From: Chaetoderma sp. LZ-2023a
Taxonomy: Eukaryota > Mollusca > Caudofoveata > Chaetodermatida > Chaetodermatidae
Direction: 5' to 3'
Length of the DNA: 64,000 nt
Assembly (NCBI GenBank): GCA_034401795.1
Contig: CM067374.1
Span: 99,172,860-99,236,859 of the forward strand
Shown one piece after another: positions 1,933-35,888 of the stretch. The translations under genes and the position numbers were made by a program. Each line of letters begins with the position of its first letter. The first letter of the stretch is position 1. The notes beneath the pieces are model-generated. The model worked only from the letters and a program-made list of their open reading frames with translations, was not told where the DNA came from and ran no database searches.

Positions 1933-2579
1933 CTTGGCCCAAGAATACTGGTCATAGAATTACATTCACGGGGCTGAAGCATCAGGCGTCACAATTCTTA
2001 AGCCGTCGCACTGGATATAAAAGTAGATCATTGGATGTCCAAAAAGCTAGATCCAGGACAAAATTACCTGCTCATTTACGAGTCCTTCAAAAGCCAGTGG
2101 GATCAGGTGAAACGCGATCAAAAGACACAAAGTTCTTGTGTCCGTATTGTCAACGAAATGATTTTGGATCTACAGAATTCTCAACACATATCATAGAACA
2201 TTTGGACAGGACTGCCAGAAGTTTTACATGCATAGTTTGCGGATCTGTGATAAATGAACTTTGGAACTTTATTCGACACACACGTGGTCATTCAGCACAG
2301 ATGAAAAGACGATTTGAGTGTGATTTGTGTGGTCGGTCATTTAACCGAAGCGATAGTTTAAGAAGACATGAGTGGGCATTGCATAAAATAAAACTTCCTT
2401 TATTATCTTTAATGCCATCAAATACCCAGACAATGGCACCGCTGCCAAATACAGCTCCTCAGTCACTGACTATAGATGAAACATTTCCAGTGGAGGAAAC
2501 TCTCTACTCAACTTCTGATGCACAGCTTGAATCTGAAGAAATGTTCTTACCCTGGGATGTTGCTGACACTGGCTCTTAA
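1933..2579 (+). CDS. Terminal exon with three C2H2 zinc fingers (copy 1)
   Basis: This is a terminal coding exon of a DNA-binding zinc-finger protein, presumably nuclear. The 3' splice site is the pyrimidine-rich tract ending TTTGCAG at 1932. The frame is open from there to the TAA at 2577-2579. Two bases (CT) complete a split codon, so entry is phase 1, and 214 residues follow. From the first whole codon, the fingers lie at about residues 69-89, 99-119 and 129-150. Each reads C-x2-C-x12-H, ending H-x3-H, H-x3-H and H-x4-H. A basic stretch precedes them and a 60-residue Ser/Thr/Glu-rich tail follows. No credible start codon or 5' exon is nearby, so it must be spliced to upstream exons. Exons at 12193 and 35410 share the architecture. 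The stop codon coincides with the TTAA end of a family B MITE. The upstream partner, for example a BTB exon, is unknown. Confidence 0.85.
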
Positions 2580-2785
2580 TCCTGTAACTCTCATATCAGC
2601 CAAAACCGCCTTCTGCAGTGGTCTTGAGAATTGTCGATTTGCAGACCAAGAGAAGACTATTTTTGAAAATTTACCACAGGAATGACTGGCTCTTAATTAA
2701 AAATGTCTTCTTGGTCTGCAAATCAACATTTTCTATGAGGAAATCGAAGTTTTGTCGAACAATTTCAAGTTTTATATGGTTAAAT
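2576..2785. repeat. Family B MITE abutting the stop codon of zinc-finger exon 1
   Basis: Starts TTAATCCTGTAAC, matching the family start TTAACCCTTTAAC, and ends GGTTAA. The internal GCAGACCAAGAGAAGACTAT core is present, with the centre shortened. Its TTAA end includes the TAA stop at 2577-2579, so any 3' UTR here begins in MITE sequence. Confidence 0.65.
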
Positions 2786-2984
2786 CATTTGATCAATTCT
2801 CTGCTTAGTTATCTTGAGCATATCACAAATTCACAAGTCTCAGTCATGCTCTTGATGTAATGTAGATGTATGTACAAACGGAATGTTTCCTTGCTCGGAA
2901 TTATGCCTCCAGCCTGTGAACTTGTGGTATTCTACACAATGTGTGTTAATTTAACACTGCTAGTCATGAGTAGTCGAGAAAATC

Positions 2985-3115
2985 TCAATATTCATTTGCA
3001 TGCCAAGAGAAGACTATTTAAAAATAGTTTTCCACTGGAATCACTGACTCGGTTACAAAGCCAGGCATTCCAATGACAAATTTTCAAAAATTGTCTTGGC
3101 CTGCAACTATATTCC
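2985..3115. repeat. Family B MITE fragment
   Basis: Contains GCCAAGAGAAGACTATTT, a diverged CCACTGGAATCACTGACTCGG stem half and the partner half CATTCCAATGACAAATTTTC. The termini are worn. Confidence 0.5.
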
Positions 3116-3167
3116 CGAAGCTATAAACTACAGAAGCCATTTTGGCCAGTTTCACCATTTCCAAGTG

Positions 3168-3278
3168 TTAACCCTTTCACCGACATATCCCTGAAAAGTA
3201 TTCTTTACGATATAAAAAGTATTCTGTTGAATATTTTGAAATTAATTTAACTGGGAGCCGTTGCTGCCTAAGGGTTAA
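3168..3278. repeat. Family J short MITE with TTAA ends
   Basis: Runs from TTAACCCTTTCACC to AAGGGTTAA. The interior carries GTTGAATATTTTGAAATTAA and TGGGAGCCGTTGCTGCC, the same hairpin arm as in family A. About 110 bp long, with only one arm of the hairpin. Confidence 0.55.
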
Positions 3279-4027
3279 GTAAATCAGACATCAGACTTTG
3301 GTGAAAGCTGACGCTAGCGGCTAGACATGTGCTGGAAATTAGATATTATTTTCCGAACTATATAATACCTGCCCTTGTAGATAATACTATGTGTCAAAGA
3401 TCTCAAACAAGTTCCCATGTAATGTCAAAATTATTAACAGGGTTTAAAATTTTGATACTGCATTGGAACCAGTTTCTGTTTCTCTTCATATATAAACAGA
3501 ATGAATATTATCCTATAGCCGCTTGTCAATTCTGCATCCAAATAGTCCTGTCATTACAGATACCTCTGATAAGTATGACTAATTAGAATGAGTCTCTGTT
3601 TGTCAATTTTTTTACATTTCTGACAAAGCAGGCGCCATGTCGTAATGATGTGTCACACTTAAAAATTTCCTTAACATAATGCTGACAATATTATGAACTT
3701 ACATGTATTTATATGGAATTATATTAATGGCATAATAGAAATACAATTAATATTCATTAAAATATATACAATTTGTCTTTCTGGCATGTAGCAGATCCAT
3801 TGACTCGAATAGATACTGTGCAAAATTCCACATCTTTATGCATTCTCGTATTGTAGAATGTTTGGAGGACATTCCTGCACCGTAAAATATGTCAATCGGG
3901 AAATCCCTCGGTCACATCAGAATATGTTGTCCTCCATGTAATATGACCGTACCAATTTAGTACCACTGGATTTGTATAGAGTAAATGGAACCCACTGATA
4001 TAATGTCTCCGGTATTAAGTCACAGGT
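3279..4027. other. Non-coding stretch, nothing recognised
   Basis: AT-rich intronic or intergenic DNA. I see no long frame with domain signal and no family A-J core. Confidence 0.5.
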
Positions 4028-4915
4028 TTTTGTCGCCTACGAAGCAGAAAGCGAGACATGTCACTTTTCTGCCGGCAATGGCGTCAGCAATGTTAAGTTT
4101 TTGCATTTAGCAAAACTTCTCAGCTTATATTTCAGGATCAATTAATCCTATTACAACTAAACTTGGCTATGTGGTTGTTGTCTCGCCTGCGAAGCAGTAA
4201 GCAAGACACATGTGTCACTTTTCCGATGCGTCAACAATGTTAAGTTTTTGCGTTTAGCAAAACTTCTCGGCTTATATTTCTGGATCAATTAATCCTATTG
4301 CAACTAAACTTGGCTGTGTGTTTGCATATATTGTTAGGATGTGGCATGATGATACTGAGGTCACAAGGTCACGGTCACTGTGACCTTGATACAAAACACT
4401 GGGTTTTTTCAATGTTAAGTTTTTGCGTTTAGCAAAACTTCTTGGCTTGTCTTTCATGATTGGTTTATCCCCTATAGAACTAAACTTGGATACATTATTA
4501 CCTATAATGTTAGGAAGCAGCATGTTGACACTGAAGTCACAGTCATGGTCAAAGTTTTTAGGCTTAACAAATCTTATCATATTATATTTCGGGATTGCTT
4601 AACCCTAATGGAGCACAACTTAGGTAAATGGTTGCTTATGCCAAGAGGATACAGGATGGTGACATGGAGGTCACCAGGTCAAAGGTCAAGGCCATTCTCA
4701 TATTGCTATTTGACCTCTGCTTTTTCAACTTTAAGTTTTTCCATTCAGCAAATCATTTATATTTTAGGATTGGTTAATCCTATTGGAACCAAACTTGAAT
4801 ACATTGGTATCTATAATGTTAGGAAGCATGATAACACAGAGGTCGCAAGCTGAAAGGTCACTGTGACAAACAGGAGACAGACGAGACATTTAATTCCGCA
4901 GAATTTTTGTTGTGA
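4028..4915 (+). repeat. Family D repeat, compound copy
   Basis: Two starts of the type TCGCCTACGAAGCAG..GCGAGACA are seen at about 4035 and 4183. They are followed by repeated GTTAAGTTTTTGCRTTTAGC and 'CCTATT..ACTAAACTTGG' modules. The end is AGACGAGACATTTAATTCCG. At least four related internal units recur, so it is a compound or tandem copy. No protein is encoded. Confidence 0.65.
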
Positions 4916-4957
4916 TTATGTCTCCCCATCCCCCCACCCCACACTATAAATATATTA

Positions 4958-4962
<5 letters not shown>

Positions 4963-5014
<52 letters not shown>
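4963..5014. repeat. (TA)n microsatellite
   Basis: About 26 uninterrupted AT dinucleotides. Confidence 0.95.
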
Positions 5015-5023
<9 letters not shown>

Positions 5024-5429
5024 TAGCATTTGATTTTTGTCTGTGTTTGCCTGCGTGTTTGGGCTGATATCTCCATTTCTACTGAAGAAAAACTCAAACT
5101 TATTTGGAGGCTACACATGGGTATCTTGATACCCATTGTCTGCTGTTCACCAAACTACGATGGAAGGTTGCCTTCGTGAGTCCGAAGAACAATATACAAT
5201 TTTGGGGGAGTATTTAAGTAACGTTTACTGTCTTAATGACTCAATTACAAAAATTTAGTTGCTTGTAAAAATGTTAGTGAACTGAAGAGATCATTACCAA
5301 GCTTAAGTTGTTTGTTTCCCTTGTGTTTCCGACGAACTTGCTTCTTGAATCAATGGTCAAGGTTGCTGACCCAACTTTGGAAATTGTGTTGCTGTGGATG
5401 CATTCTGTGCTCAGCTACAATCACTACAG

Positions 5430-5900
5430 AGCGTGACTTACTGGATCCAGTCTGGAGACTGAAATACTGGGCACCAGTACCTCTATGGTGCGGGCTGTAT
5501 CAGCGGTGTCCGCTACTGGATCCAATTTTGCAGGCTGGCAGCCATCCAATGGGATCTCGTACTAGATCAAATGCAAGGCGAGTCCTAAGCTAGAAGGCAT
5601 GGTGATTACCTCTTGTTCTGTTCCCTGGGCAGCCATGGCAACAACTGCAGGAAGGCTTTCTATTAGGATATAATACCCTGCCGGTCCCACCCATTTGCAA
5701 TGCATCAGTGTCAAAGGGACACCGCTCAATGTGCAATCGGTGTCAAAGGGACACCGTTCAATCAACATTCGTTGCAACAGGACACCAAGAGGTGCCCCAT
5801 TTGAGGAAAATGGGACACCAGAATAACAACCGGTGTAGGATCAACGGTGTAGGGACACCGGGGATCTGGCCGGTGTCCAGGCGACATGGTTTAAAAGGTT
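5430..5900. repeat. Segment rich in GGACACC/GGTGTCC motifs
   Basis: More GC-rich than its surroundings. GGGACACC or its complement recurs irregularly, mainly between 5690 and 5890, along with paired CTGGATCCA motifs near 5440 and 5515. Open frames here are cysteine-rich by chance and match no domain I know. It may be part of a degraded repeat. Confidence 0.35.
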
Positions 5901-6020
5901 TTAAAAAATCAGTCTGACGCCTAATCACAGCAAGTACTCAGCTTATGGTTGCCAAGATTCAATTGAAGATAACCCACATCAGCTGAAGACGTACATGTAG
6001 TTATCATCCTTCTTAATATA

Positions 6021-6392
6021 TAGGAATCCAGTCTCGGTCAAGTGTGTGATGTCATAATCAAATACGGCACAAGTAGTCTGACGTCGCAATTGAAATACAT
6101 CATGAATGGCATATCTAAGTTCATCAGGAACTCTTAGTAGTCCGTCATGTGTACAAATTGTATGTCTACTACTTAATAACCATTCTGTTGAATATTTTGA
6201 AATTAATTTGATGGGCCGCTGTTGCAACAGCACCCAGTCAAATTAGTTTCAAAATATTCAACAACTTACCTGTATATTTTTCTGGAAATTGCAATTCAGA
6301 GACTTCAGGGTTCGATAGATCCCAACACGGGCAAATCATGGGTTGAGCTTAGCTAAAGATTGGCGGGCCATAGCTAAAGATGGATTCATCTA
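6021..6392 (-). repeat. Family A MITE, near full length
   Basis: Runs from TAGGAATCCAGTC to ATGGATTCATCTA. The order is CRE-like arm (TGATGTCATAATCAAATA), central hairpin with a GCTGTTGCAACAGC core, then TTACCTGTATATTTTTCTGG and the GGTTGAGCTTAGCTAAAG arm. Confidence 0.75.
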
Positions 6393-7009
6393 TTGTGCCA
6401 AAGTTCCTGATTGAACACGTTGAATAATGAGTCACCCTGGATTCATTGTGATGTGCGGCGTCGCTATACACTGCGACTTTCATAAATAACTTGCTATTGA
6501 TGATATCATTATCAAAAATAACCGTCAATTGGTGAATCTAGTACCGGTACATTGTCATGTCAATGCCAGTCTATTGTCATCTATACAGGGGTTCGGTGTG
6601 TAAAGGGATTATTAAAAGAGCATCCTGAAAATATTTTGAAGATAATAATTTTTAGGAAATAACTACTTATTGGACAAGATTATTTCACAAAAATGTAATC
6701 ATTCAGTATATGCAAAACATGGCTTCTCGGATATCAAATTTTCAAATATCGTAGGATTCTTTTTCGTGTTTAGCGGGCGTGGATTATTTTTTTGATCGCG
6801 GATCACAAAACGTAACAATTTGGTGTTATTGCATCCTGTACATGCCTTCTACTTGTTGGCACAGAGTGCTGAAAACTTTAACGCTTTCTGAACTGTTATA
6901 TTCTCTGGGATTCGAAGAATGTATGTTGTTCAAACATTGACCATAAAGGTTTACGTTATCCTCACAGGTAAAGTGCTGAGTTTGAGATTAGGCAGTGTGG
7001 CAAGTGGTG
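6393..7009. other. Non-coding stretch, nothing recognised
   Basis: AT-rich with no supported gene or repeat core. Confidence 0.45.
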
Positions 7010-7136
7010 ATTCGTGATGATCCAAGTGTTTGCGACAAGCATTGAGTTTGTTCAAGAGGGCCTTTGAAACTGCCCAGCAGTTGTATAACATTATTGAGAC
7101 ACAGGCAGCTTCATATAGATGCACCTTGAGTTTCAT
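7010..7136 (-). pseudogene. LINE reverse-transcriptase relic (thumb region)
   Basis: The minus-strand translation reads KLKVHLYEAACVSIMLYNCW and continues AVSKALLNKLNACRKHL. This resembles the post-catalytic 'K-x-YEACVVS-x-LLYNC-x-W..LLKKLD' segment of non-LTR retrotransposon reverse transcriptases. Only about 40 residues are recognisable. No FADD box or 3' tail is nearby. Confidence 0.5.
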
Positions 7137-7479
7137 GGGAATTTAAGAGGTGTAAATTCACAATTTAGAGGCCTGGAAAGCAAGGTTTCCTTTCACACAA
7201 AGATTTGCAATGTCAGTAGAACAGCAGAAATGTGAACCCAAGATGCTGCGCTTCCTTCACTTCGTCTCAGACCGAAGTAAGGTACACATGTGTGAGCTCG
7301 GTTTTGGCTTTATTTATGAAGAGGTTTGTGGCTTTAAGCTGTTTTGCTGCTATTGGAAGCATTTCATCAATGGGACCCTTTTTTCATCGATGAAATTAAC
7401 ATCAACAGCATACCCCATTTCTAGTGGCATATGTAGCTTGGATATTGGAAGATTGGATTCTCGAATAGATGGTAGCTGC

Positions 7480-7560
7480 AGTAACCCAACAGACCTATAT
7501 ATAAATTTTCAAAGGTAGTCTTCTCTAGGCCTGTAAATCGACTAGCGGCTCATCCGGGTT
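7480..7560. repeat. Family B fragment
   Basis: Carries ATAAATTTTCAAAGGTAGTC followed by CTGTAAATCGACT, the right half of a worn family B palindrome. Confidence 0.4.
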
Positions 7561-7754
7561 AATTTCAAACACAGCATATGGCAGATGTTTTGTCATGTAA
7601 ATTCTCGATTTTTTCAGATTTCCCGGATGTTTCTTTGATTTTCCAGATTTTTTCCCAGTAACACACCTAATGTGGTGGAATCCTAATTTATAGTAGCAAT
7701 CTGAGCAAAATCGGACCAGTAGTTACTGAGATATACACAAATCCAGAATTTGAT

Positions 7755-8097
7755 CTGATTAAATACAGATGCCAGAAGAAAGTGGGCATCACCACAGAGA
7801 GGCGAGGAGACAGCATCCACTCGTTTGATAGACTGAAGCAAGTGATCATCTTCAGACTCCGGTTAGGCAACTGCAGACTGAATGCCCACCCACATCCACA
7901 GACGAAGGTTACTCTCGACAGCTTCCTGTCCATCTGGCACACTATCCCAAACAGTAGAGCATATACTACAAGATTGGCCCCTCTTAGATGAGCTACGTAG
8001 AATGACATGCTCGCGACCTATAGCTTTAAATGAAAAACTCTGGGGCCATGCTGCACAACTCACCATAACAGCCGATTTCATCATAGACAGTACTTAA
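7755..8097 (+). pseudogene. LINE 3'-terminal ORF relic with frameshift
   Basis: The first frame gives IFRLRLGNCRLNAHPH. A frame change near 7890-7910 leads to a second frame with SCPSGTLSQTVEHILQDWPL and then LWGHAAQL..TADFI. This matches the C-terminal region of LINE ORFs that normally reads 'FRLRTGHCRLNAHL..CPCG..QTVEHVLQDCPL..LWG'. Two expected cysteines are lost (CPSG, QDW). It is a broken, probably inert fragment. The upstream reverse transcriptase is absent. Confidence 0.65.
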
Positions 8098-8442
8098 TAT
8101 TCAATTGTGATTGCAAAGCCAATTATATGTGAAAGCAGAAAAAGAATAATCCGATCTTGATCCGAATTCTGTTATCCTGATCATGGACAATGTCTGGAAA
8201 TCCTCTTGCACTACAAAATTCCTTCTTTGTGTTAAAATCTGAATGAAATCTGATCAATAGTTTTTTTGATACAGCTCTGGACACACAGACAGACCTACAT
8301 ACAGACAGATCTGATTCCAGTTAACATCTTCCCCTTTACGGGGCAAGGGTAAATGTATAGTGAACAGATTATTACAGCTTAATATGTTATAGCTGAAGCA
8401 CATTCGTTAGTGTGTGTCATTGTTAATGTTTAGAATTATGGA

Positions 8443-8620
8443 ATGAGACCTTTACCTCAGGGATTTTGGTGGATAATCTTGCTGTCTACGACAACATCTT
8501 CCACCAAATTTGTTGACAAATGAACACCAGTTATCTTTTAATTTAATTGGAAAATTAAACATTTTGACATCAGTGGTAGTGGTTAAAGGTGATACATACA
8601 AGAGGACCTGGTATATCATA
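8443..8620. repeat. Family C palindromic MITE
   Basis: Left arm 'gataatcttgctgtctacga' and right arm 'caacatcttccaccaaattt' flank the centre. Then come ACACCAGTTATCTTTTAATT, TTGACATCAGTGGTAGTGG and TTAAAGG. Related copies lie at 8885, 21296 and 62815. Confidence 0.55.
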
Positions 8621-8721
8621 CCTGTAAAGGCATATAGAAAGGGCAATTTGATTGTTTGAAGGAAGCAATATGCATTTTATTTGATCTAAGATTTAAGATA
8701 AATTGCATCCTTTTGTGAGAG

Positions 8722-8884
8722 AGGGAACTATAATTTTAGCTATACTCTGCCCATTCTTAGGTAAGCTCCGCCTGCTTTGTACATGTCTGTTTGAATCGGT
8801 TTTAACAAACCGCAGAATCTCAATTTCAAGTGAACTATATACAGTTCTCGTTAAATTAGTTTCAAAATATTCAGCAGAATGTTT
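8722..8884 (+). repeat. Family A MITE, left part only
   Basis: Begins GAGGGAACTATAATTTTAGC. It keeps the CATTCTTAGGTAAGCTCCGCC arm and part of the hairpin, and is interrupted by the family C copy that starts at 8885. Confidence 0.6.
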
Positions 8885-9098
8885 ATTAACTCTGACCACT
8901 CTGATGTCAATATTCTATCTTTTACTGTGTGTCAATAGCGATGGTATGGGTGTACAATTTTCAACAATTTGTTGGACGATGTTGCTGTGTACGACAGCAC
9001 CATCATCCACCAAATTTGTTGAAAAATGTACACCAGTTTAATATCTTTAAATCTAATTTGAAGATTTTTAATTTTGACATCAGAGTGGTACGGGTTAA
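8885..9098. repeat. Family C palindromic MITE
   Basis: Runs from TTAACTCTGACCACTCTGATG to ATCAGAGTGGTACGGGTTAA with a palindromic centre (TTTTCAACAATTTGTTGGA paired with CCACCAAATTTGTTGAAAAA). It is nested in or next to the truncated family A copy. Confidence 0.65.
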
Positions 9099-9446
9099 TT
9101 TGTAAATTCACCAAAGAGATTCAATCCAGACACATTTGTGACAGATCTTTACCACCTTTACCAGACCTACCTCATTTTGATTGTGACGTCAGAAAACAAA
9201 CGGTGTATTTGATTATGATGTAAGATACTTGACATGCTTGAGAGGTAGATCAGACCCATCTATTGTAAGAGTAGAAGTTTTTGTTGACTTGACATATAAT
9301 ATATAATTATATAATCCTACAGCTTTAATCCAAAATAGTAATTATTGTTGCAAAATATTCATTTTCCATGCACAAATATAAAGATTATTTCGATAGTTGA
9401 TCTGGTTTACAATCGGGTACATTGGCAAAATGTAACATTGGCCTCA
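9099..9446. other. Non-coding stretch
   Basis: AT-rich. One TGACGTCA motif lies near 9184. Otherwise nothing is recognised. Confidence 0.4.
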
Positions 9447-9630
9447 ATGGATGAATCCAGTTTTAGCTATGCCCCACTCATCTCTATCTAAGCTCCACCA
9501 AAGCTTTGCCCCGTTGGAATCTTTCGATCCATGTACTCTCTGAATATCAATTTCCAGAAAACTATACAGGTAAGCTGTTGACGATTTTGAAACGAATTTA
9601 ACTGGGTGTTGTTGCTGCATGTGGGTATGA
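9447..9630 (+). repeat. Family A MITE, left half
   Basis: Begins GATGAATCCAGTTTTAGCTA. It keeps CTAAGCTCCACCAAAGC and ACTATACAGGTAAGCTGTTG, then loses similarity inside the hairpin. Confidence 0.65.
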
Positions 9631-10385
9631 ACATGACAAATCGTAAATTTCAGTTGGCCAATGTATTGCATGCTGGGTAGCATTGCACACTGGGTAAATA
9701 GAACAGAAATCAAAAGCAGCTCATATCTCGGTGAAAAGTGTCTATTTAATGGGACACAAGAACTTTAACCTTCATTCACTACTAAGTCGTTTTTGTTTTG
9801 GAACCGGCTTGCTGCAGAGTTAGGTTCCATGAATGTCATATGCGCTAATGCGCTATGTCATCTAAAAGGTTTTGCAATTATTCCAAATGAACCAGTAGTT
9901 GTATTTACGGTTGAAAGCAGCATGCCAGTGACCTACTTGAAACCCTGCTTGCCTCTGACATGCATGTTTCTGCCTCTCTGACATGCCTGTTTCTGACACT
10001 GCTGCTGCCCTCTCTGACACTATAGGCTCACCGTCATGAGACGTTTTTAGATGTACATTGTCCTTAAAATGTATGTTCAGTATTGGAATGGAGTCTGTCA
10101 TTGGTTCTGCAAGTGGGGATTAACTATAAAACTATCAGAAGCAACTTTATAAAAGCATCAGTCCCTTCAAAAGACCTTCATCAATGATAGCTTGGAGACA
10201 TTTATCGCCTACATAAAGAAAATTATTTAATTCGATACATTATCAACAAACTGACAGCCAAGTAATAAGGAAAAATTAGTAACTCTCCCTGGAGCTTTCA
10301 TGATCTCGGTTATTTCTTCAGCAGATAAATCATCCAGGGATCGGGACCAAGATTTTTTGGAAATGTAACTGCAAAGTGTTTTAGA
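9631..10385. other. Non-coding stretch with a short degenerate tandem repeat
   Basis: At about 9950-10020 a motif of the form TCTGACATGC..TGTTTCTG recurs with CTCTGACA. The rest shows nothing I recognise. Confidence 0.4.
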
Positions 10386-10815
10386 GCATTCCATTTCTGG
10401 CTATGCCCCGTCCCTTTGTAGCTTAGCTCCATCCATGCTTTGTCTTTGTTGGTATCGATCGAACTCTGGATTCCCAGAATCCCAATATCAAGTAACTATA
10501 CAGGTAAGCTGTTGAATATTTTGAAATACAGGTAATCTGTTGAATATTTTGAAACTAATTTGACTGTGAGCTGTTGTTGCTTATGGCAACAACAGTTCCC
10601 AGTCAAATTGGTTTCAAAATATTCAAGCGACTATTAAATCCTTGTAGTAAAGACATATACAATTCGTACACTTGATGGACTGTTCAATGTTCATGATGGA
10701 GCTAGATACATCATTCATTACACATTTTGATTGTGACATCAGCCAACATAACAAGTGACGTAATTGATTATAAATGATGTCATTACTTGAGTGACAAATT
10801 AGATTACACATTGCT
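10386..10815 (+). repeat. Family A MITE with a partly duplicated hairpin arm
   Basis: The left arm is present, then ACAGGTAAGCTGTTGAATAT and, again, ACAGGTAATCTGTTGAATAT. This is a direct duplication of about 32 bp at the hairpin base. The GCTGTTGTTGCttatgGCAACAACAG loop region and the GTGACATCAGCC arm follow. Confidence 0.7.
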
Positions 10816-11009
10816 TTATTGCCCTTATCTTTTCTGAATACAGTAAGTTTGGATCAAACCTGATCAGCCGATGAAAACAATGATTACTTTGAAATCTGGC
10901 TACACAGCCATCACATCAAAAAGTTAGTGATCATGTATGTGTGTGTGCGTGCGTGCATTACTGACTATCTAGTTGATTAAATACGCATTACTGCTTCAAA
11001 TATGTTAAC

Positions 11010-11245
11010 CGTTTAACACACAAACTGGCTATAAATGACTTTTGTAGTGGTCTTTATAAATGTCTATTTGCAGACCAAGAGAAGATTATTTTTGAAAATG
11101 TGTCAATGGAATGAATGGCGCAATAACTGGGCCAGTCATTCCAGTGGTAAATTTCCAATATAATCACCTCTTGATCTGCAAATCGACATTTTCTATCAGA
11201 AAATTGAAACCTCTGGAAAATTTTTATGGTTAAATGGTTAGCTGA
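11010..11245. repeat. Family B MITE
   Basis: Starts GTTTAACACACAAACTGGC. It contains GCAGACCAAGAGAAGATTAT, a stem around GAATGGCGCAATAACTGGGCC, and CTTGATCTGCAAATCGACAT. Confidence 0.65.
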
Positions 11246-11369
11246 AATGGAATGATAACCTTTCTCACATAGAATTCTGAAGAGCCCAGTTTCAGTTACC
11301 TCAGTATAAAATCTGTTAAATATCTTGTAAGCAGCTTGACTGAAAATTGAAGTAACACTGTAACACTCA

Positions 11370-11655
11370 AGCCAACCAAAAACAGCTTCTGTAGTAATCT
11401 TGAGAAAAGTCCATTTATAAACCAAGAGAAGAGTATTTTTGTAAATTTACCATTCTTCCCCAAACCTAGTGCAACACCGGCGGCCATCTTGTATTTCGGA
11501 TCATCGTCGATTTCCATAGGTTTCTTCCCCAGACCTAGTCTAACCACCCTATGAAGTGGTAAATTTAAAAAAGTACTCTTGGTCTGAAAATGGACATTTT
11601 CTATGACAAAATAGATATTTTCTTGAAAAAATTTGAGGGGTATTGTGTTAAACAT
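11370..11655. repeat. Family B MITE interrupted by a foreign segment
   Basis: The outer halves match family B (AACAGCTTCTGTAGTAATCT, ACCAAGAGAAGAGTATTTT, CTCTTGGTCTGAAAATGGAC). The usual central palindrome is replaced at about 11455-11550 by a segment containing CGGCGGCCATCTTGTATTTC, a family E-like motif. Confidence 0.6.
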
Positions 11656-12192
11656 ATTATCTTCAGCATTGGTTGCAAAAACAAACTTCCATATAGGGAA
11701 TGTCTCTATGCAAACTATGATAAGAATATTCTTGAAAACATAGTACTAGAATGACTGGTTGTCTTACAGAGCCCTTCATTCCAGCTGTAGATTTTTTTTA
11801 ATATTATTTTTCTCTGCACGTGGGCATTTTACATCAGAGGTTTTGGTCAGCTTAACAGGTAAATAGTTAAGTGAAATTGCTTTCAAAATAATGAACATCA
11901 TTGGAATTATTATATATTTGACTTAATCATTAGTAGATATCAAATATGATACAGGAGGGCACAACTTAATGCACAGTTATTAATATTTATAACAATCACC
12001 TTTAACAGCAGTTTTATCAGCTAACCTGTATTCCAATGCATGTCCTAACTGCTGCTATGTTTCTGGTTGTTTATGTTTTGGATTTTTTAAAGATTCCAAA
12101 AAACCTAACTTAAATATGTACCTATGTTTGTGACTGTATTTGGTATGGGACACTATGAGTACTACCCTTCGTCTTTTCTCTCTTTGTTGCAG
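11656..12192. other. Presumed intron before zinc-finger exon 2
   Basis: AT-rich. A worn family B fragment lies at about 11700-11880. The stretch ends in the pyrimidine tract and TTGTTGCAG acceptor at 12192. Confidence 0.5.
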
Positions 12193-12749
12193 TCTTGAGC
12201 AGCGGCAGCCAGTTCTCAGGATGTTCATTCTCTGGTTTGGATTACTCATTTCTCTGTGCCGTCGAAGACGATGATGATGACCCTTTGAATAACAATGATG
12301 ATGAAGATGACGATATTCTTAAAACTTCAATAGAAGAAGCTGTTGATCAGACAAATTTAAACGAGATGTACAAATGCATATTCTGTAATTTCAGTTGTAA
12401 GGGCCCGTCTGCGATATCTCGACACATGTACAACCATGCTGATAAATCAGCTGACCTGCATATTTGTCCCATGTGCAATGCCGTTCTTAAAACCGTCCGT
12501 AACTTCACCCGGCACTGTATGAGTCACCTGACGCAAGCCAGGAATATGTATCGATGCAAGATCTGTTCTCAGGGTTTCACCCGTCACGACAATCTCAAGA
12601 AACATATTCGACAGCGGCATTTTGGTGAACAACCACTTTTTACCTCAGCACCTACCCAAGTCCCCCTGAAAACCCCAATAGGAAATTCCCAAGCATTAAC
12701 ACGTAGAAAGCCGCGCAAAGGCAATGCAACTAAATGGCCATCATTTTGA
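12193..12749 (+). CDS. Terminal exon with three C2H2 zinc fingers (copy 2)
   Basis: This is a terminal exon of a probable nuclear DNA-binding protein. The acceptor TTTGTTGCAG ends at 12192. Two bases (TC) complete a split codon (phase 1), and 184 residues follow to the TGA at 12747-12749. A strongly acidic Asp/Asn-rich segment lies at about residues 24-40. The fingers are at 61-81, 91-111 and 121-142. Cys and His spacing is C-x2-C-x12-H throughout, ending H-x3-H, H-x3-H and H-x4-H, with 9-residue linkers. The third finger has the contact helix R-H-D-N-L-K-K. The tail is short and basic (RRKPRKG). It resembles the 35410 exon most closely: both share NxxRHCMxH in finger 2 and RxDNLK in finger 3, and both have an Asp run before finger 1. 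No in-frame 5' exon is nearby. It is either an alternative last exon or part of a paralogous gene. I favour the former. Confidence 0.85.
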
Positions 12750-12750
12750 T

Positions 12751-13162: not shown

Positions 13163-13380
13163 TTAACCCTTTCATGACGAAACCGGCCACAGCCAGCCTT
13201 TGTAATAGTCTTGAGGAATGTCCATTTGCAGGGCAAGAGAATACTATTTTTGAAAATTTACCACTGAAATGACTGGCTTGATAACCGAGCCTGACTGGCT
13301 CGATAATCGAGCCACTCATTCCAGTGATAAATTTTCAAAAATAGTCTTATTTTGACCTGAAAATGGACATTCAATGGGCA
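13163..13380. repeat. Family B MITE
   Basis: Starts TTTAACCCTTTCATGACG. The central stem is GAATGACTGGCTCGATAACC with its inverse and an extra internal duplication of the TGACTGGCTCGATAA unit. Confidence 0.7.
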
Positions 13381-13435
13381 TATATTTTGAATTGCCAAAT
13401 TCATCCACTAAAGCATTAAGCTGCTCTGCATAGCC

Positions 13436-13676
13436 TTTAACCCTTTAACACTCATGTCAGCCAAAAACAGCCTTTGCAGTGGTCTTCAGAAATGTCCATT
13501 TGTAGACCAAGAGAAGAGTTTTTGAAAATTTACCACTGGAATGACTGGCTCGATAACCGAGCCAGTCATTCCAGTAATAAATTTTCAAAAATACCCATCT
13601 CTTGGTCTGCGAATGGACATTTTCTAGGAGAAAATTTAAATTTTCTTTAACAAATTCAAGGGCTACAGGGTTAAAC
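13436..13676. repeat. Family B MITE, best-preserved copy
   Basis: Ends are TTAACCCTTTAACACTC and CTACAGGGTTAA, so TTAA flanks a CCCT..AGGG terminus. The order is AGCCAAAAACAGCC, AATGTCCATTTGTAGACC, AAGAGAAGAG, then the palindrome TACCACTGGAATGACTGGCT and its inverse, then TCTTGGTCTGCGAATGGACA. TTAA targeting with CCC termini is typical of piggyBac-type non-autonomous elements. This assignment is inference. Confidence 0.75.
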
Positions 13677-13748
13677 CAGCAATTAGTTTTTCTTAACCCT
13701 TCAAAACTTACAAACAGGAATGACAATTTATTCTTTTTGATGTATGGA

Positions 13749-26517: not shown

Positions 26518-26589
26518 CGTAAGCCTGCGCAATCCTTCCTGCAGAATGCACCCTTCCTGTCTGGCTCCGTCTTGCCACGTGCATCACTG

Positions 26590-27430: not shown

Positions 27431-27565
27431 ACTCTATTGTCTGTGAAATATTTGCTGAAGGTATTCCCCATTGCAAGAGCAACGTGAAGACGTCATCCAC
27501 GGTGGTCTGATGGTAATTATTCTTGAATGACATCAATGCTTGTTAGAAATCATGTTAATAATTAC

Positions 27566-28044
27566 CCCTTTAATGGTCAAACTGGCCTCTGCAGTGGTCT
27601 TGAGGATTGTCCATTTTATGACAATGAAAAACTATATTTGCAGGTTTAGACAACCGTTTCCCCATCTGTAATAACTGTTCAAAATAGTTTTCCAGTGGCC
27701 TGCAATTAATCCGAAAACGGCAGATTGTCATAGTTTGCAGATTTAGAAAAAAAATTTTTAAAACCTTTTTCCCTATTGAACACAAGCCTGTAATAAGTGT
27801 TCAAACTATGACAATCCACTGTTCTCGGATGAATTACGTTGTATAATATACAGACTGAAAAAGGCCGATTTTGCACACCAGGGCGCTCTGGAAAGTTTTC
27901 CCTATTGAACGCTGGAATGCCTGGCTCAAGGACCAAGCGAGTTATTTGAGTACACTTTCAAAAAATGGTATGGACCTGCAAATGGACATTCACTCGGCAA
28001 AATTTTAATTTCTTTTACAAATCTTTACCATTAATGGGTTAGCT
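27566..28044. repeat. Family B MITE with internally duplicated middle
   Basis: Outer parts match family B (ATGGTCAAACTGGCCTCTGC, GGACCTGCAAATGGACATTC, CCATTAATGGGTTA). The interior holds two units each containing 'GTAATAA.TGTTCAAA' with 'TTTTCCCTATTGAAC' or 'TTTCCCCATCTGTAA', arranged partly as inverted copies. Confidence 0.5.
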
Positions 28045-28819
28045 ATTAACAATGATTATGCAAATAAATAATAGCACACACTGCTTCGACGTGTTGTGCC
28101 TATATGGAATTCTTTAGATGTTAATAGTCTGTCTGTTGCAAAACTTCTATAAAGAGTCTTGTCAGGGAAACCATACAACACAATCCACACTATCTGCCTA
28201 GTAGTTCAACTAGTTTAAAAAACCCAAAAAGCTTCCATCACTTCTGTGGGTGCTCCAAATTATTAGATTATTATCGTCACTCGACAACAACATATGTATG
28301 GCTTGAAATTTACTTGGATGATCCACGAGTCATTCATTAGCAAGCAGGGTTGGTGATCAGTAAATTATGCAAGCCCTAATGATAACCTTATAGAGTTGGC
28401 TGAATCAATTCATTGATCCCTTTAATGGTCAAGGCGGGGTTGGGGTGGGTGGGGACGTGTTGGTCTTGTGAAATATCATGCTATTTTTGAAAATTGACCA
28501 CGAATGACTGGCTCAAGGAACATTAACATAGTTAACTTAATTAGTTATGATGTCTTTTATGGGTTTCGAATACAAATTGTTACTAGCTTACGGGCATGGT
28601 CTATAATAAATACACCTTTTGATGTAGGCCTATTTTAAGAAAATACCTTCCCACCATGGCATGGCTCTCAACTCTGATTGCTGTTTAGCATGCACAGTAA
28701 GGCTAAGCGTGATCTGTATTTCTTTAATATTAAGGTCTGATACAGCACACTTTAGACGTTTATATGACGGTCTAAGATCATAATCTTATTGGATTCATAC
28801 ATTAGCAGAAAGCTAAGAC
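28045..28819. other. Non-coding stretch with a family B fragment
   Basis: The fragment at about 28425-28515 (TTTAATGGTCAAGGCGGGG, GACCACGAATGACTGGCTC) is a piece of family B. The rest is unrecognised. Confidence 0.45.
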
Positions 28820-29168
28820 AATTCACCTTTCCATCATATGACGTCATAATCAACTACGTGATGTGTAGAATGACATTATAATGAATGATGTCGATAAGTA
28901 CGTCAGGAACGCATATTTGAAGACGGTCTATACGTTGTTAGACAAATTGTATGCCTTTACTATTTAATAAATATTCTGTTGAATATTTTGCCATAGGCAG
29001 CAACAGCACCAAGTCAAATTAATTACAAAATATTCAACCGCTTCCCTGTATAGTCTTCAGGAAATTGATAGTTAGGGCATTCGGGGATCGATCAATCCCA
29101 GCACGGCGAGGTGTGGGTGGAGCTTAGCTAGTGCTGTGCGGGGCATAGCTAAAAATGGAAAGGTCAAT
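28820..29168 (-). repeat. Family A MITE, full length, CCTTTCC-ended subtype
   Basis: Begins TTCACCTTTCCATCATATGA and ends AAAAATGGAAAGGTCAATT. One hairpin arm is shortened. GGGATCGATCAATCCCAGCA and GGTGGAGCTTAGCTAGTGCT are present. Confidence 0.75.
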
Positions 29169-29327
29169 TATATACGCAGTTATGTATTAGTTTTATAACG
29201 GAAAATTGTATCGAGTTAATTGAATAATTATATGTTTAAGGCACACCATAATGCCCGCTTGAATTGCTGAAATTTGGTACACGGGTGTATTTTAAATATG
29301 CTATTAAAATTTTCAAAAATAAAAAGT

Positions 29328-29378
29328 AATAAATTGAAAAATTGATTTGAAAAATTGATTTGAAAAATTGATTTGAAA
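29328..29378 (+). repeat. Short tandem repeat, 14-bp unit
   Basis: Three to four copies of GAAAAATTGATTT. Confidence 0.8.
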
Positions 29379-29479
29379 GGTTTTCACAGCATTCGTCGCA
29401 GAATGTCCTTTATAACATATTCAAAATCCGGCGTTGATGGACTTTTCTATATGCAAATTAGCTAATTAGTATATTGAAC

Positions 29480-30350
29480 ATTGGATTTCCTCCAATTTTA
29501 TGTGTCAGGGCAACCATATAAAATGCACTTTTTGTGCTGGATCTGTTACAACGGTGATACTAGTACCTAAATTGTCATATATATTCCCCTTGAGGCATCT
29601 GTTGAGAAAAAAGATTAACAACTTGAAAATCCAACATGGCCGCCATTTTTCCAGTTGGCCGTCAGGCAGAAACAATTATGTGACTACGAAGCGTCTAGGA
29701 AGCTTATTTCTACTATTTCTGAGCTTCTTGGTGGAAAAGGTGCGTGGAGTGTAAGAATAAAGATAGTTCCTTGCATTAGTAGTCAATCACGTTATGTAGA
29801 TGGATTAAGAGCACTGATACTCCCTACATACCAGCCTATAATCTATTTCTTAGACCGTAAAGGTGATATGAGTACCCAAATTGGCCTATATATTCCCCTT
29901 GTATGAGCTCTTGAGTAAAAGACATTAGCAACTTGAAAATTCAATTAGGTCGTAAATTTTCAAGATGGCCGCCATCGATAACCTAAAATAACTTTTTGCC
30001 TTAGAATTTTAACGAATTGTCCCATCTGGATAATTTAACTGGTTATTTCCATATTTTTGACTACGTAGAAACTGATTATGTAACTGCGAACCATCTAAGA
30101 TGCTTATTTCTATCATTTTCTGAGCTTCTTGGTGGAAAATAGTATTTGCTTAAAATGATGTTTTTCCTGTATTTCACTGTATTGTGCTCAAGCCTAAGAA
30201 TTGAAGCACTTGGTTTTGTTGGTGTTGTGTAAGAATAAAGGCATTTCCTTGCATTTGGCAGTCAACCAAGTCATCTAGATGGATTAAGAGCGATGATGCT
30301 CGCTACATATTCACCTATCATCTATTTCTTAGATCATAAAAGTGGTGTCA
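29480..30350 (+). repeat. Large-unit tandem repeat
   Basis: The block 'GAGCTTCTTGGTGGAAAA..GTAAGAATAAAG..CCTTGCATT..GTCAA..TAGATGGATTAAGAGC..ATCTATTTCTTAGA' occurs at about 29717-29850 and 30120-30335. 'ACCTAAATT..TATATATTCCCCTTG' with 'CAACTTGAAAATCCA' occurs at about 29565 and 29875. The unit is a few hundred bp. It contains 'ATGGCCGCCAT' motifs like family E. The small open frames are not conserved between units, so they are not genes. Confidence 0.6.
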
Positions 30351-31019
30351 TATCAGGTATGTAGTGTTTCATGGATAAATAGACATAAATAGACATCATA
30401 AGCTAGAAGTCCAAGACAAAAATTTAACAAATTTCAAAGGCGCTACTGTTTAGCAAGACAACTAAATAAATACGAAGCTAAGTGCAGTCAACCATGTCTA
30501 TAACATCCATTTCTCTTTGGTGACGTAACGCAATGTCTCTTTAAAGTTGCACTATGGTAAGCGCTTAGTAATATGACCGGTCACATGTGTTTAGTAACCC
30601 CGATGGTCTATACATTTTCTGTTATAGACAGGTATGACGGTTCCTGTTACAATGGTATAATATCATCAGCATCTCGGTAGTCAGTACTGTGGCACTCTCC
30701 ACAAGCAGTGACACGTTGTACGCCATTCTACCGATTCACTGTAGCAGCCTTTCCATGACCATAGTACATGATGTGATATAACAACCACCCCGTGCATGGT
30801 CAGCATGGATAAATATGATATTGTCTGTGACAATATTTCCTGCCTCTTTCTTACACTCGCGCATATTGCAACTTTCTTACAAGCGCAAATATTGCACAAT
30901 TTGACTCCATGCAGGTCAGTGGTTTGCCTCTGGCTTTACCAGGCAGATGGCGCGCTCTGAGCATTGATTTAGGTGGAAATGAAAGGCCAAGTGACCTTAT
31001 GCTATGGCTGGCGACGGTC
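30351..31019. other. Non-coding stretch, nothing recognised
   Basis: Two 'GCGC/AAATATTGCA' motifs near 30860-30895. No supported gene. Confidence 0.4.
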
Positions 31020-32207
31020 CGTCGTCTATCAACTTGTCCTTTAAACGACTTCTTCTCGAGAACCACTGAGCTGATTTCAATTATATTTTGTCAGGAAGAA
31101 TTCTTAGGGAATGGGGGATCCAGGTTTGATCAAATGACGCCGATCGGCCAAGATGGCTGGCGGCCATCTTGGATTTCGGCCGATTTTAGGAAACGTCTTT
31201 AAAAATCTTTTCCGAAACCACTTGGGGAATCGATTCAAAACTCATGAAACATCATCTAGGGCAAGAGGTAAGCCAAGTTTGTTCAAGAGGACTTGCTTGA
31301 CCAAATAGTTCGGTGGCCATCTTCGATGACCTAGTTTTCCCCAAAACGATTTCTCCAGGGATCAGGCTGAAATTTGGGAGATATGATTAAGGACTAAGGG
31401 CCATTAAAGTTTGTTCAAGGAAAGTTGATCCGCCGTGGGTCAATCAAAATGTAGTGTGTTTGGCGGCCATATTTGATTTTTTTATTTGATGGATTTTGAA
31501 GCCGAAATTGGTTTTATATATTTTTTTGGGTATTCTGAGATCAATTTGCCAATTTCGAAACTGTCGGATAACCGGTTTGGCGGCCATCTTGGATTATTTT
31601 CGTTCCAAAAACTCCCATACTAAAGCAATAGGAAAGTTAAAATGTCTTCTCGAGAAGTACTAGACAGATTTCAATTATATTTAGCAGGAAGCATCCTTAG
31701 GGCATAGGGAGCCAAGTTTGTTCAAATGAATCCGATCGGCCAATTTCGTCAGCGGCCATCTTGGATTTCGGCCGATTTTAGAAAACATCTTTAAAAATCT
31801 CCAAAACCACTTGGAGGAATCAATTCAAAATGCATGAAATAGCATCTAGGGCAAGAGCTGCACCAAGTTTTTTCAAGGGAACTTGATTGGCTAAATGGTT
31901 TGGCGGCCATCTTGGATAACCTATTTTTTGCCAAAGCAACTCCGGAACCACTGAGCAGATTGGGCCGAAATTTGGGAGATATGATTAGGCACTGAGCGCC
32001 ATTAAAGCTTATTCAAGGAAAGGAGCTACGTCAAAAACATGTCGCAGTGGACCAATCAAAATGTAGCATGTTTGGCGGCCATATTAGACTTGCAAAATTG
32101 TCCATAAACTCATTTAAAAAAGACTACTCCTAAACCACCCACCAACAATTTTAACAAAAATTTAGTGCTCCAGGTGAGCGACACAGGCCCCTTGGGCCTC
32201 TTGTAAT
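31020..32207 (+). repeat. Two tandem units of a 'GGCGGCCATCTTGGATT' repeat
   Basis: The unit starting 'TTCTCGAGAA..ACTGAGCTGATTTCAATTAT' lies at about 31050 and again at about 31645. Each contains CATCTTGGATTTCGGCCGAT, 'AACATCATCTAGGGCAAGAG', 'AATTTGGGAGATATGATTA' and 'TCAATCAAAATGTAG'. It ends near 32170-32205 in a 'GGTGAGCGACACAGG' / 'CCTTGGGCCTCTTGT' tail that I associate with dispersed mollusc repeats. Non-coding. Confidence 0.6.
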
Positions 32208-32524
32208 TATCTCAATGTGGGAAGGTATATTAGTACTAGATCTAGCAAATTCCCTCTAGCACCGTTCTAACCCTAATTTAAAGCCCTACTGTTTCATGTT
32301 TATCTTCTCAACTAATCTCTCATGTCATCATCATCATCATTATCATCTGTTGCGACGTTGGAGGCCCGTACATGGCCTATTGTTGATCTCAAGTTCTTAC
32401 ATTATACCTTTGGATGCGCAGTGTGCTAATAATGGTTGTAGTAGGTTACGTTGGTTTTATTTTATTTTTTTATCCTTTTTTATCCCCCCCCCCACCCCTG
32501 GGTTTGGAAGACGGTGGGATATAG
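32208..32524. other. Non-coding stretch with a C-run
   Basis: A run of about nine C followed by ACCCC near 32486-32500, and an ATC-rich run near 32325-32345. An open frame across it has low-complexity composition and no domain. Confidence 0.45.
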
Positions 32525-34170
32525 CGATCAGCATGTCCGTCCTTCTGTCCCCCGTCTTGTCAACGCAACTCTTAGAGGTCTCAATGGATCAACTTAAAAT
32601 TTCGTCTACATTATCAGTATCATGTGCGGATGTGCATGTGCTTTTTTCGTGTCCGAAACATTGTTCATTACAGAGTTATCCCCCTTTATATATATCTGAA
32701 AGCCGATACATAAACTGCATTGCCAATCATTTCTTGTCAAGGCAACTCCTCCTACAGGTCTCAATGGATTAGCTTAACATTTTGTCAACATTATCAGTAT
32801 CATGTGCGGATGTGCATGTGCTTTTTTCGCGACCGAAAATTTGTTCATTATAGAGTTATCCCCCTTTAAATATCTTAAAGCCAATACGTAAACTTCATTG
32901 CCAATCATTTCTTGTCAACGCAACTCCTCCTACAGTTTAGCTCCGATTCTTTTGAAAATTGGTACGTGTTATCATTACCACGTGTAGCTGTGCATGTGGT
33001 ACCTGTACGTCCATCCATCTGTCCAAAATGTATGTATGTTCGTCTGTCAGTCCATCCATCTCTGACAATCATTTCTTCTCAACGCAACTCCTCCTAGAGG
33101 TCTCAAGGGATTAACTTAAAATCTTGTCAACATTATCAGTATCATGTTCAGATGTGCATGTGCTTTTTTTGCGACCGAAAAATTGTTCATTACAGAGTTA
33201 TCCCCCTCTAAATACCTTAAAGCCAATACATAAACTGCATTGCTAATCATTTCTTGTCAACACAACTCCTACAGTTCGGCTCCGATACTTTTGAAAATGG
33301 CTGCGTGTTATCATTACCAAGTGTAGGTGTGCATGTGCTATCCGTGTACCTGTACGTCCACCCGTCTGTCCAAAATGTATTTATGTCCGTCTGTCAGTCC
33401 ATCCATCTCTGACAATCATTTCTTGTCAACGCAACTCCTCCTAGAGGTCTCAATGGATTAACTTTAAATTTTGTCCACATTATCAGTATCGTGTGTTATC
33501 CGTATACCCGTATGTCCATCTGGCTGTCCAAAATGGATGTATGTCTGTCAGTCAGTCCATCCATCGCTGACAATCATTTCTTGTCAACGCAACTCCTCCT
33601 CCTAGAGGTCTCAATGGATTAACTTTAACTTTTGTCCGCATTATCAGTATCATGTGCAGATGTGCATGTGCTTTTTTCGCGGCCAAAAAAGTTTTCATTA
33701 CAGAGTTATCACCCTTTAAATATCTTAATGCTGATACATAAACTGCATTGCCAATCATTTGTCAACGCAACTCCTACAGTTTAGCTGCAATTCTTTTGAA
33801 ACCTGGTAAGTGTTATCATTATGACATGAAGATGTGCATGTGCTATCCGTATACTTGTACATCCATCCATCTGTCCAAAATGTATGTTCGTCTGTCGGTC
33901 CATCCTTGTCAATGCAACTCCTACAGTTTAGTTACAATTCTTTTGAAACATGGTAAATCTAGTCATTACCATCCGAAGATGTGCATGTGCTTTTTTCGCG
34001 GCCAGAAAATTATTCATTAAAGCGTTATCTCCCTTTAAATACTTTTAAGCCGATATATAAACTGCAGTACCAATCATTTCTTGTCAACACAACTCCTACA
34101 ATTTAACTGTGATTCTATTGAAACTTATTACGGATTCTCATTACCACTTGAAGATGTGCATGTGCTATCC
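32525..34170 (+). repeat. Family G array: alternating modules
   Basis: Module 1 (CATTATCAGTATCATGTGCG, GATGTGCATGTGCTTTTTTC, TTCATTACAGAGTTATCCCC) begins near 32608, 32788, 33130 and 33638, with shorter variants. Module 2 (CTCCTACAGTTTAGCTCCGA, TTATCATTACCA, GTCCATCCATCTGTCCAAAA) alternates with it. Both are joined by AATCATTTCTTGTCAACGCA. At least eight module copies are visible. Non-coding. Confidence 0.75.
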
Positions 34171-34202
34171 GTATGTATGCTTATCTGAAATGTTTGGATT
34201 CG

Positions 34203-34242
34203 GTGGTGTGTGCGTGCGTGCGTGCGTGCGTGTGTGTGTGTG
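34203..34242. repeat. (GTGC)n/(GT)n microsatellite
   Basis: GTGC tetranucleotide run followed by GT run. Confidence 0.85.
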
Positions 34243-34450
34243 ATATGCCGTCTTCTGATGGCTCTTGTTTCTTTTCTCTTTTTGTGCAGTAGGGTGTATA
34301 ATTTAGTGATATTGACATATGTACTATTTACAAATGTACATATTTACATCATATGTACAGTACAACTCCGAAACAACTTAAAGCATGCTTCCAAAACAAA
34401 AACAGAAACATGTTATTACTAGTAAGCAATGGTCTGTTGAATAATTTGAA

Positions 34451-34792
34451 CCTAATGGACCTTTCCATTTTAGCCATGCCCCGCTCATCTCTAGCTAAGC
34501 TCCACCCACACTTCGATCGTGTTGGGATCGATCGATCTCGGAACTCACTGACTATCAATTTCCAGAAAACTATCAAGGTAAGCTGTTGAACATCGCCCAG
34601 TCAAATTATTTTCAAAATATTCAACAGCAAGTTTATTAAATAGTAAAGACATACAATTCTTACAACGTGTCGGACTATTAAGAGTTAAAGACGGTCCATA
34701 TAGACTCATTTATGACGTAACGTGTATGACGTCATCCTACACGCCGCTTAGCTGATTGTGACGTCATTACTCTAGAAAGGTCCATTGGATTC
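34451..34792 (+). repeat. Family A MITE, full length with matching ends
   Basis: Left end AATGGACCTTTCCATTTTAG. The right end is AGAAAGGTCCATT, its inverse over about 12 bases. It keeps CATCTCTAGCTAAGCTCCAC, ACTATCAAGGTAAGCTG, a shortened hairpin, and two TGACGTCA motifs (34727, 34759). Confidence 0.8.
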
Positions 34793-34891
34793 TTCCAATG
34801 GGCTTGTTAAGTATGACGTCACTGCGCGTGATTCGTAACCCGATGTGTGTATTTTGCTTTATTTCGTCATAAGTACGTGTTTATGACGTCA
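34727..34891. promoter_or_regulatory. Cluster of four TGACGTCA (CRE-like) sites
   Basis: Perfect TGACGTCA palindromes begin at 34727, 34759, 34814 and 34884. The first two lie inside a family A MITE. TGACGTCA is the canonical CREB/ATF bZIP site. Regulatory function is inference. The cluster sits about 520 bp upstream of zinc-finger exon 3. Confidence 0.4.
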
Positions 34892-35409
34892 TCATTTGTT
34901 GTTAAACAAAAACATTGTTTTGTGTATTTAGCAATCGATCTGAACCCGGGAATACGTCATCCATAAAATTAGGTTCACAATATTAAACAGTGTGGGTTAT
35001 TTTGTCTTGGAAACATTTTTCTGAGCTGTGTTGTAATTTATGAATTTTCTAGTTTCAAGATATGTCAACAAATCTCAGTCAGATTGCTCTTAAATTCGAC
35101 CAGCATTCTATTCTCAAATCTATGATCATGCGCGTTGTACACTGCATTAAATTAAATCCTTCATAGACTCGGCAAATCTTTTGGAATATAATGTCACTTG
35201 CTTCTTTCATTGTCTTTTCCTCACATAATTTGTTGTTGGTGTTGTACTGTGTGCTTTCAGTTTTTATATTTTTATTAAGGCCGTTATGTTAATGTTTTCT
35301 AGTATGTAATTTGATTAAAAACTGATTTTGTGTTTTATATCTCGGCGCATGGTCGCAGGTTATCATTAGCTTCATGTTAGTGACATCAGCTTCTCAATTC
35401 TTGTTTCAG

Positions 35410-35888
35410 TTGACCTGTCTTTGCAAGTTGCTCTACCATCCTCAGTAACCGACGTATTCCTTACATCTGAAGAACAGGCTGCAGAATCAAGGCTAAACTT
35501 GTCCCAACAAGGTCAACTGCAGAAAAATGTTAGACAAGGACAAATTATGAGAGTAACACGTGACTCTGGAAGGCTGGACCTGTTGGGTGATGACGATGAT
35601 GACACTGGTCTTGGCATATATTGTGTACTGTGTAGTGATACTTGTTCGTCACTCTCAGATATGAAAAGCCACGTCACCAGCCATGTCCAGGGATTAACAG
35701 CGCCATACCAGTGCCCATATTGCGGATCAGTGGTCGCACGCTTCTCTAACATGGTCAGACATTGTATGGGACATATTAGTGCCAGCGCCCAACATCGTCA
35801 AATCTGCCATGTCTGTGGCAGTGGCTTTACTCGGAAAGATAATCTTAAAACTCACATGAGGATAAAACATGGCATTCACTTTACATGA
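35410..35888 (+). CDS. Terminal exon with three C2H2 zinc fingers (copy 3)
   Basis: This is a terminal exon of a probable nuclear DNA-binding protein. The acceptor TTCTTGTTTCAG ends at 35409. Two bases (TT) complete a split codon (phase 1), and 158 residues follow to the TGA at 35886-35888. The N-terminal 65 residues are Gln/Ser-rich, followed by an Asp run (about 59-64). The fingers are at about 71-91, 101-121 and 132-153. The third has the contact helix R-K-D-N-L-K-T. Cys and His spacing equals that of the exons at 1933 and 12193, except for one extra residue before finger 3. The protein ends four residues after the last histidine. An AATAAA signal occurs only seven bases after the stop. 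No start codon context or nearby 5' exon was found. It is best read as an alternative last exon joined to upstream constant exons. A retained paralogue is the other possibility. Confidence 0.85.

Follow-up and report, generated by a model that had tools for sequence, protein, structure and literature searches.

Candidate alternative zinc-finger terminal exons behind a shared upstream front in the genome of a caudofoveate mollusc

Terminal exons in the window

The stretch analysed here (the window) comprises 64 000 nt of the caudofoveate mollusc Chaetoderma sp. LZ-2023a, taken from the 2.44 Gb assembly GCA_034401795.1 (contig CM067374.1, below C16; C16:99172860-99236859). It carries three + strand exons that each encode three C2H2 zinc fingers and end in a stop codon, and that we treat as candidate alternative terminal exons (tails) 12, 13 and 14 of an array of 14. 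The exons lie where the original prediction, made from the letters of the window, had placed them: tail 12 at 1933..2579 (214 codons), tail 13 at 12193..12749 (184 codons) and tail 14, the last found in the array, at 35410..35888 (158 codons), each preceded by cag and opening with two lead bases before the frame. Their fingers, also on the + strand, occupy 2139..2384 (starts 2139, 2229 and 2319), 12375..12620 (starts 12375, 12465 and 12555) and 35622..35870 (starts 35622, 35712 and 35805). The identical finger spacing noted earlier was likewise recovered, with three, three and four residues between the paired histidines in every exon and a first linker of 9 residues in all three; the two inter-finger linkers measure 9 and 9 residues in tails 12 and 13, and 9 and 10 in tail 14. 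Directly 3′ of the tail 14 stop, an AATAAA (35895..35900, + strand) is by its sequence a candidate polyadenylation signal.

A regular-expression scan of both strands found nine well-formed C2H2 fingers in the window, all of them inside the three exons; four further matches were rejected as not finger-like. On a home-made splice-site score, the acceptors of tails 12, 13 and 14 rank 9th, 2nd and 21st among 3356 + strand AG sites. When an open reading frame (ORF) was followed from every acceptor scoring at least 4 (36 per strand), the three tails were the longest on the + strand, all with two lead bases, while the longest such ORF in 20 Markov-simulated windows was 122 residues and none reached 150. 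The splice sites, shared phase and ORF length in the window exceed chance.

The claim that the exons lack a credible start codon stands for tail 12, which has no in-frame ATG before its fingers, and mostly stands for the other two: tail 13 has an in-frame ATG at 12366, directly before finger 1, and tail 14 has one at 35547, before its fingers and with A at position -3. No other convincing exon had been seen between the three, and a Pfam search of the three + strand frames over 1-59.6 kb agreed, returning only C2H2 fingers; it was run on read-through translations with an E-value cut-off of 0.01 or 0.05, and its sensitivity was modest, known fingers falling just below the Pfam cut-offs.

Similarity among the three tails extends over all three fingers (BLASTP E-values of 5e-19 to 1e-14, single comparison), with an overall identity of 26-35%. 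The only Pfam families above cut-off in them are zinc-finger types, of the C2H2 kind, with no FLYWCH match in any of the three. Tail 13, as modelled with AlphaFold2, has three fingers, whose predicted local distance difference test score (pLDDT) is about 88-92 in fingers 1 and 2 and about 72 in finger 3; a helix (residues 101-116) continues from finger 2 into the linker towards finger 3. Because the alignment held three sequences and the mean pLDDT was 63.6, the model is trustworthy for the fingers only. A ttk-specific finger type was considered and rejected, the tramtrack structure having matched far below many generic C2H2 structures. Among 14 candidates, no protein relative of tail 14 was found at E<=1e-5, a result of little weight given a database apparently poor in animal proteins.

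When C16:98972860-99172859 was joined to the window, the resulting 264 kb held 14 ORFs with three fingers each; they all lie on the + strand, end in a stop and are 2.1 to 25 kb apart. The suggestion that more tails may lie beyond the window was thus borne out by 11 further tails upstream. Two lead bases follow the best acceptor in 13 of the 14, and in 19 of 20 distinct tails once six from other arrays are included (22 rows minus two duplicates). Three tails, at 99153596, 99156166 and 99158286, are recent copies that are 75-81% identical.

The ratio of nonsynonymous to synonymous substitution rates (dN/dS) is 0.17-0.53 in the eight closest tail pairs (dS exceeds 2 in one of them), which indicates that these tails are maintained as protein, under purifying selection. 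The quartets of DNA-contacting residues vary, with 17, 15 and 13 distinct quartets among 19 for fingers 1, 2 and 3, and some contacts are nearly fixed: Arg at finger 2 position +6 (19/19) and finger 3 position -1 (18/19). Under the usual zinc-finger recognition rules, these residues suggest targets with a shared core and variable flanks.

Constant exons upstream of the array

A search upstream for a BTB or other constant exon, as the original prediction proposed, yielded two + strand exons and no BTB domain. One, termed the linker exon (C16:99087230-99088189, 960 bases), lies about 85 kb upstream of the window on the same strand and was found by eye as a 371-residue + strand ORF upstream of the first tail, neither repeat-like nor finger-bearing. 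Its acceptor leaves two lead bases before the frame, and its donor is phase 1, compatible with the tails; as the phases of its two ends agree, skipping of this exon would keep the frame intact. Used as a genome query, it retrieved nine relatives at E<=0.1, giving ten linkers altogether (852-1029 bases). All ten begin with APKWI[KR]DYSMS, contain an [IV]K[KR]E sumoylation-type site and sit 1.2-21.5 kb downstream of a same-strand N-terminal exon (N-exon). In each of them the top-scoring acceptor leaves two lead bases, and the top-scoring in-frame donor is of phase 1; the linker ends were set at a donor near the end of the ORF, which in three cases was preferred by eye to a higher-scoring donor, also of phase 1.

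At this locus the N-exon (C16:99083999-99084203, + strand, 68 whole codons, phase-1 donor) lies 3.2 kb upstream of the linker. It has 36 genome matches including itself, 35 of them below an E-value of 1e-3; the other matches are 39-96% identical over the matched part, and conservation falls mainly on residues 19-68. The predicted front would consist of a conserved stretch of about 50 residues, a APKWIKDYSMSM motif and a Ser/Thr/Pro-rich linker with a sumoylation-type site. Neither exon matched Pfam at E<=10, which includes the absence of KRAB or any other known domain from the N-exon, or NCBIfam at E<=0.1. In the PDB nothing meaningful was found for the N-exon (one weak match, E 0.05 over 23 residues) and nothing at all for the linker. 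The N-exon is nevertheless conserved between loci. No protein relative of the joined isoform was detected at E<=0.1 among 7994 scored sequences, again with little weight in view of a database apparently poor in animal proteins.

The N-exons at C16:98484039, 98634941 and 98388010 are 85-96% identical to that at 99083999 over about 50 residues, while the linker exons of those loci, where found, are 33-34% identical. This contrast may reflect either strong constraint or gene conversion acting on the N-exon. At C6:30.95-31.45 Mb, three near-identical linkers each accompany a stop-containing N-exon match, with tails undetected; these could be either recent copies or decaying loci. Upstream of the N-exon at the locus studied here, a Maverick/Polinton-like run of large ORFs was recognized by eye at C16 ~99.055-99.069 Mb.

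Recurrence across the genome

Scoring was limited to the best 150 candidates of each tail query, so the genome-wide tail counts are lower bounds. Tail 13 gave at least 118 matches, of which 84 lie behind an N-exon and 34 are scattered; ORFs of more than 300 residues hold 30 of the scattered 34. In a pooled set of at least 110 places from three tail queries, with those 34 left out, 101 of 110 matches have a same-strand N-exon no more than 300 kb upstream, as against 1 when strands are flipped. With the scattered matches kept, 101 of 143 do.

At least 101 tails stand behind 11 N-exons, at minimum counts of 31 and 8 on C9; 15, 14, 6, 6 and 1 on C16; 6 and 5 on C11; and 8 and 1 on C6. The longest distance from an N-exon to its last tail is 252 kb. 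N-exon, linker and tails occur together at six loci (this one and five elsewhere), and the partial loci comprise five with N-exon and tails and four with N-exon and linker. Three C16 loci carry tails resembling the odd first tail of this locus, designated class II, and at each of them these tails are closer to the constant exons than those of class I, with at least 1 then 13, 11 then 4, and 3 then 3 tails of class II and class I, respectively.

Discussion

The order, strand, phase and conservation of these parts are plain in the assembly. Reading splicing from genomic DNA, we consider it very probable that a single + strand gene at C16 ~99.084-99.209 Mb has 14 alternative terminal exons, of which the three in the window come last. 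Transcription would begin upstream of the N-exon, a phase-1 donor of the constant exons would be spliced to one tail per transcript, and the transcript would be cleaved after the chosen tail. Nearly all tails of an array share a strand, so ordinary cis-splicing would be the simplest route. The products would be proteins with one front and differing three-finger DNA-binding ends and so, we propose, factors with common partners and different target DNA. The organisation originally predicted, one locus with common 5′ exons and swappable zinc-finger tails, gains strong genomic support from the same-strand, phase-compatible linker and N-exon upstream, and from the placement of one N-exon before up to at least 31 tails and of N-exon plus tails at 11 loci, six of them with a linker.

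Several observations weigh against this organisation. The choice of the N-exon was made by eye, for its strong splice sites, among candidates ordered by score, of which it came 13th; its coding score is negative, and 4 of its 36 genome matches contain stop codons. An upstream exon carrying a start codon was looked for at the locus and not found, and an ATG-bearing candidate at C16:99078124-99078204 was set aside as a weak guess at most. Among the matches listed, no tail was detected for 25 of 36 N-exon matches or for 4 of 10 linkers, and 5 of the 11 tail-bearing N-exons had no detected linker. The first tail of this locus (99102750) is exceptional in that its best acceptor is in another phase, and three of the 20 distinct tails have weak acceptors (scores 1.1-1.9). 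The matched stretch contains a stop in 9 of the 84 array matches of the tail 13 query; another tail query recovered 8 of these 9 over a somewhat different stretch that has no stop, and at C9:20239165 a stop was seen only with that other query. Some tails may have decayed. Lastly, association with itself or with partners, as BTB provides in lola, is the most likely role of the conserved front, but it is a guess.

Alternatively, the tails could belong to individual zinc-finger genes that lie in a cluster and have a promoter and a short 5′ exon apiece, as in vertebrate KRAB-zinc-finger clusters, whose genes do not share front exons and encode many fingers each. The Chaetoderma arrays share with them a tandem expansion of C2H2 exons and varied contact residues, the 2.1 to 25 kb gaps between tails could hide short first exons, and tails 13 and 14 do have an in-frame ATG before finger 1. 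However, these arrays have one front each and three fingers per tail, the ratio of 11 N-exons to at least 101 tails (up to at least 31 behind one N-exon) speaks against separate genes, 19 of 20 tails share an acceptor phase that fits the linker donor, and tail 12 has no ATG before its fingers; we regard separate genes as very improbable. Scarcely more probable is that the same parts are used with the tails as separate transcription units, trans-spliced to the constant exons as happens partly in lola and mod(mdg4). There is precedent for this in Drosophila (PMC1947980, PMC4667647), and arrays whose last tail lies as far as 252 kb from the N-exon would suit it, but nearly all tails share the strand of their N-exon (101 of 110; 1 when flipped), unlike those of mod(mdg4), and no 7-9-mer that might act as a shared intronic selector exceeded control in the 300-base stretches preceding 13 tested acceptors.

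A third alternative concerns function rather than structure: the tails might be a fast-changing repertoire for silencing repeats, like KRAB-zinc-finger proteins, instead of a developmental set of isoforms. The tandem gain of tails, including the three recent copies, the differing contact quartets and the location of the arrays in repeat-rich DNA are all compatible with such a role. It accords poorly with tails of just three fingers in which some contacts are nearly fixed, with dN/dS below 1 in the eight closest pairs and with an N-exon lacking KRAB or any other Pfam domain, and we think it unlikely, though a more serious contender than the two structural alternatives.

The closest comparisons for one gene with alternative finger tails come from insects. 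Drosophila lola splices alternative 3′ exons, the majority of them encoding zinc fingers, onto common 5′ exons to give at least 20 isoforms (PMC1947980); a lola tail has at least one C2H2 or C2HC finger, except in three isoforms that lack fingers. The genomic arrangement here is similar in that common 5′ exons precede several phase-matched alternative terminal finger exons, and in this respect the predicted lola-type organisation stands. It fails at the front: the common part of lola holds a BTB domain, whereas none of the 77 matches of a BTB model to the genome falls inside an array, so that the locus is not a lola homologue, although the model was searched exon by exon and a BTB domain split over short exons could therefore be missed. 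The tails found here also all have three fingers, and they number at least 101 at 11 loci rather than belonging to one gene. Drosophila mod(mdg4) combines a single common 5′ exon region with no fewer than 31 alternative 3′ ends (PMC4667647); it has a BTB front, mostly FLYWCH tails and some variable exons on the opposite strand. One common 5′ region with many alternative 3′ ends is again the likeness; the differences are the absence of a detected BTB domain, the C2H2 tails and the position of nearly all of them on the strand of the N-exon. Among lophotrochozoans, Crassostrea oysters have clustered whole BTB genes of similar structure (PMC12111275), which is likewise a tandem expansion of transcription-factor genes, but of whole genes rather than of alternative tails behind one front.

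This gene family probably works like lola on an undescribed constant region, and it is probably lophotrochozoan. The microRNA miR-1992 is a lophotrochozoan one. Two exact copies of it are present in the genome (mature sequence from PMC7328434), whereas two snail microRNAs of that paper were not detected, miR-1985 in a search for exact copies and miR-1984 with one mismatch allowed. More tentatively, and with slightly more doubt than confidence, we propose that the front is a new N-terminal association domain, present in about 35 copies in this genome and alternatively spliced to at least 101 finger tails, such that isoform mixing would generate combinatorial DNA-binding identities, and that this undescribed and probably lophotrochozoan system is convergent with arthropod lola and mod(mdg4). 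In the literature covered (titles and abstract openings, with subscription papers mostly outside its scope), no such array was described outside insects, and the swappable zinc-finger tails found there belong to insect BTB genes. Use of the same logic with an unrelated front, apparently outside arthropods and for at least 101 tails spread over 11 loci, would imply that it evolved more than once. With 14 DNA-binding ends at this locus and similar sets at others, a few genes could yield about 100 different gene switches, and the exact exon coordinates now serve the study of how one tail is chosen among up to at least 31.

Repeats and neighbouring features

Searches of the window with Rfam and ARAGORN gave no match. 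A dispersed, partly palindromic repeat occurs at 713-901, 1681-1811, 2576-2787, 2987-3104, 11005-11795 and 13186-13678, many of its window copies being near tails 12 and 13. The repeat may have promoted duplication of the exons, or may simply insert there. The sequence cag|GTAAGC at 10504, 9570, 15878 and 26723 was considered as an exon border and rejected as part of a dispersed repeat.

Just after tail 14, a Tc-type transposase has inserted on the - strand (36532-37575, two adjacent ORFs matching Pfam HTH_Tnp_Tc3_2 and DDE_3). Further downstream, 45827-48944 (- strand) holds reverse-transcriptase and endonuclease-like ORF pieces that resemble, by eye, a broken long interspersed nuclear element, one tested piece of which had no Pfam match. 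A 305-residue ORF at 61736-62653 (+ strand), without a Pfam or NCBIfam match, looks by eye like a Crypton-derived DUF3504 protein, and an exon-like stretch ending in GT lies upstream of it at ~61300-61398. Between tails 13 and 14, at 32724-33495, is a tandem repeat of 2.2 copies of a 342-base unit.

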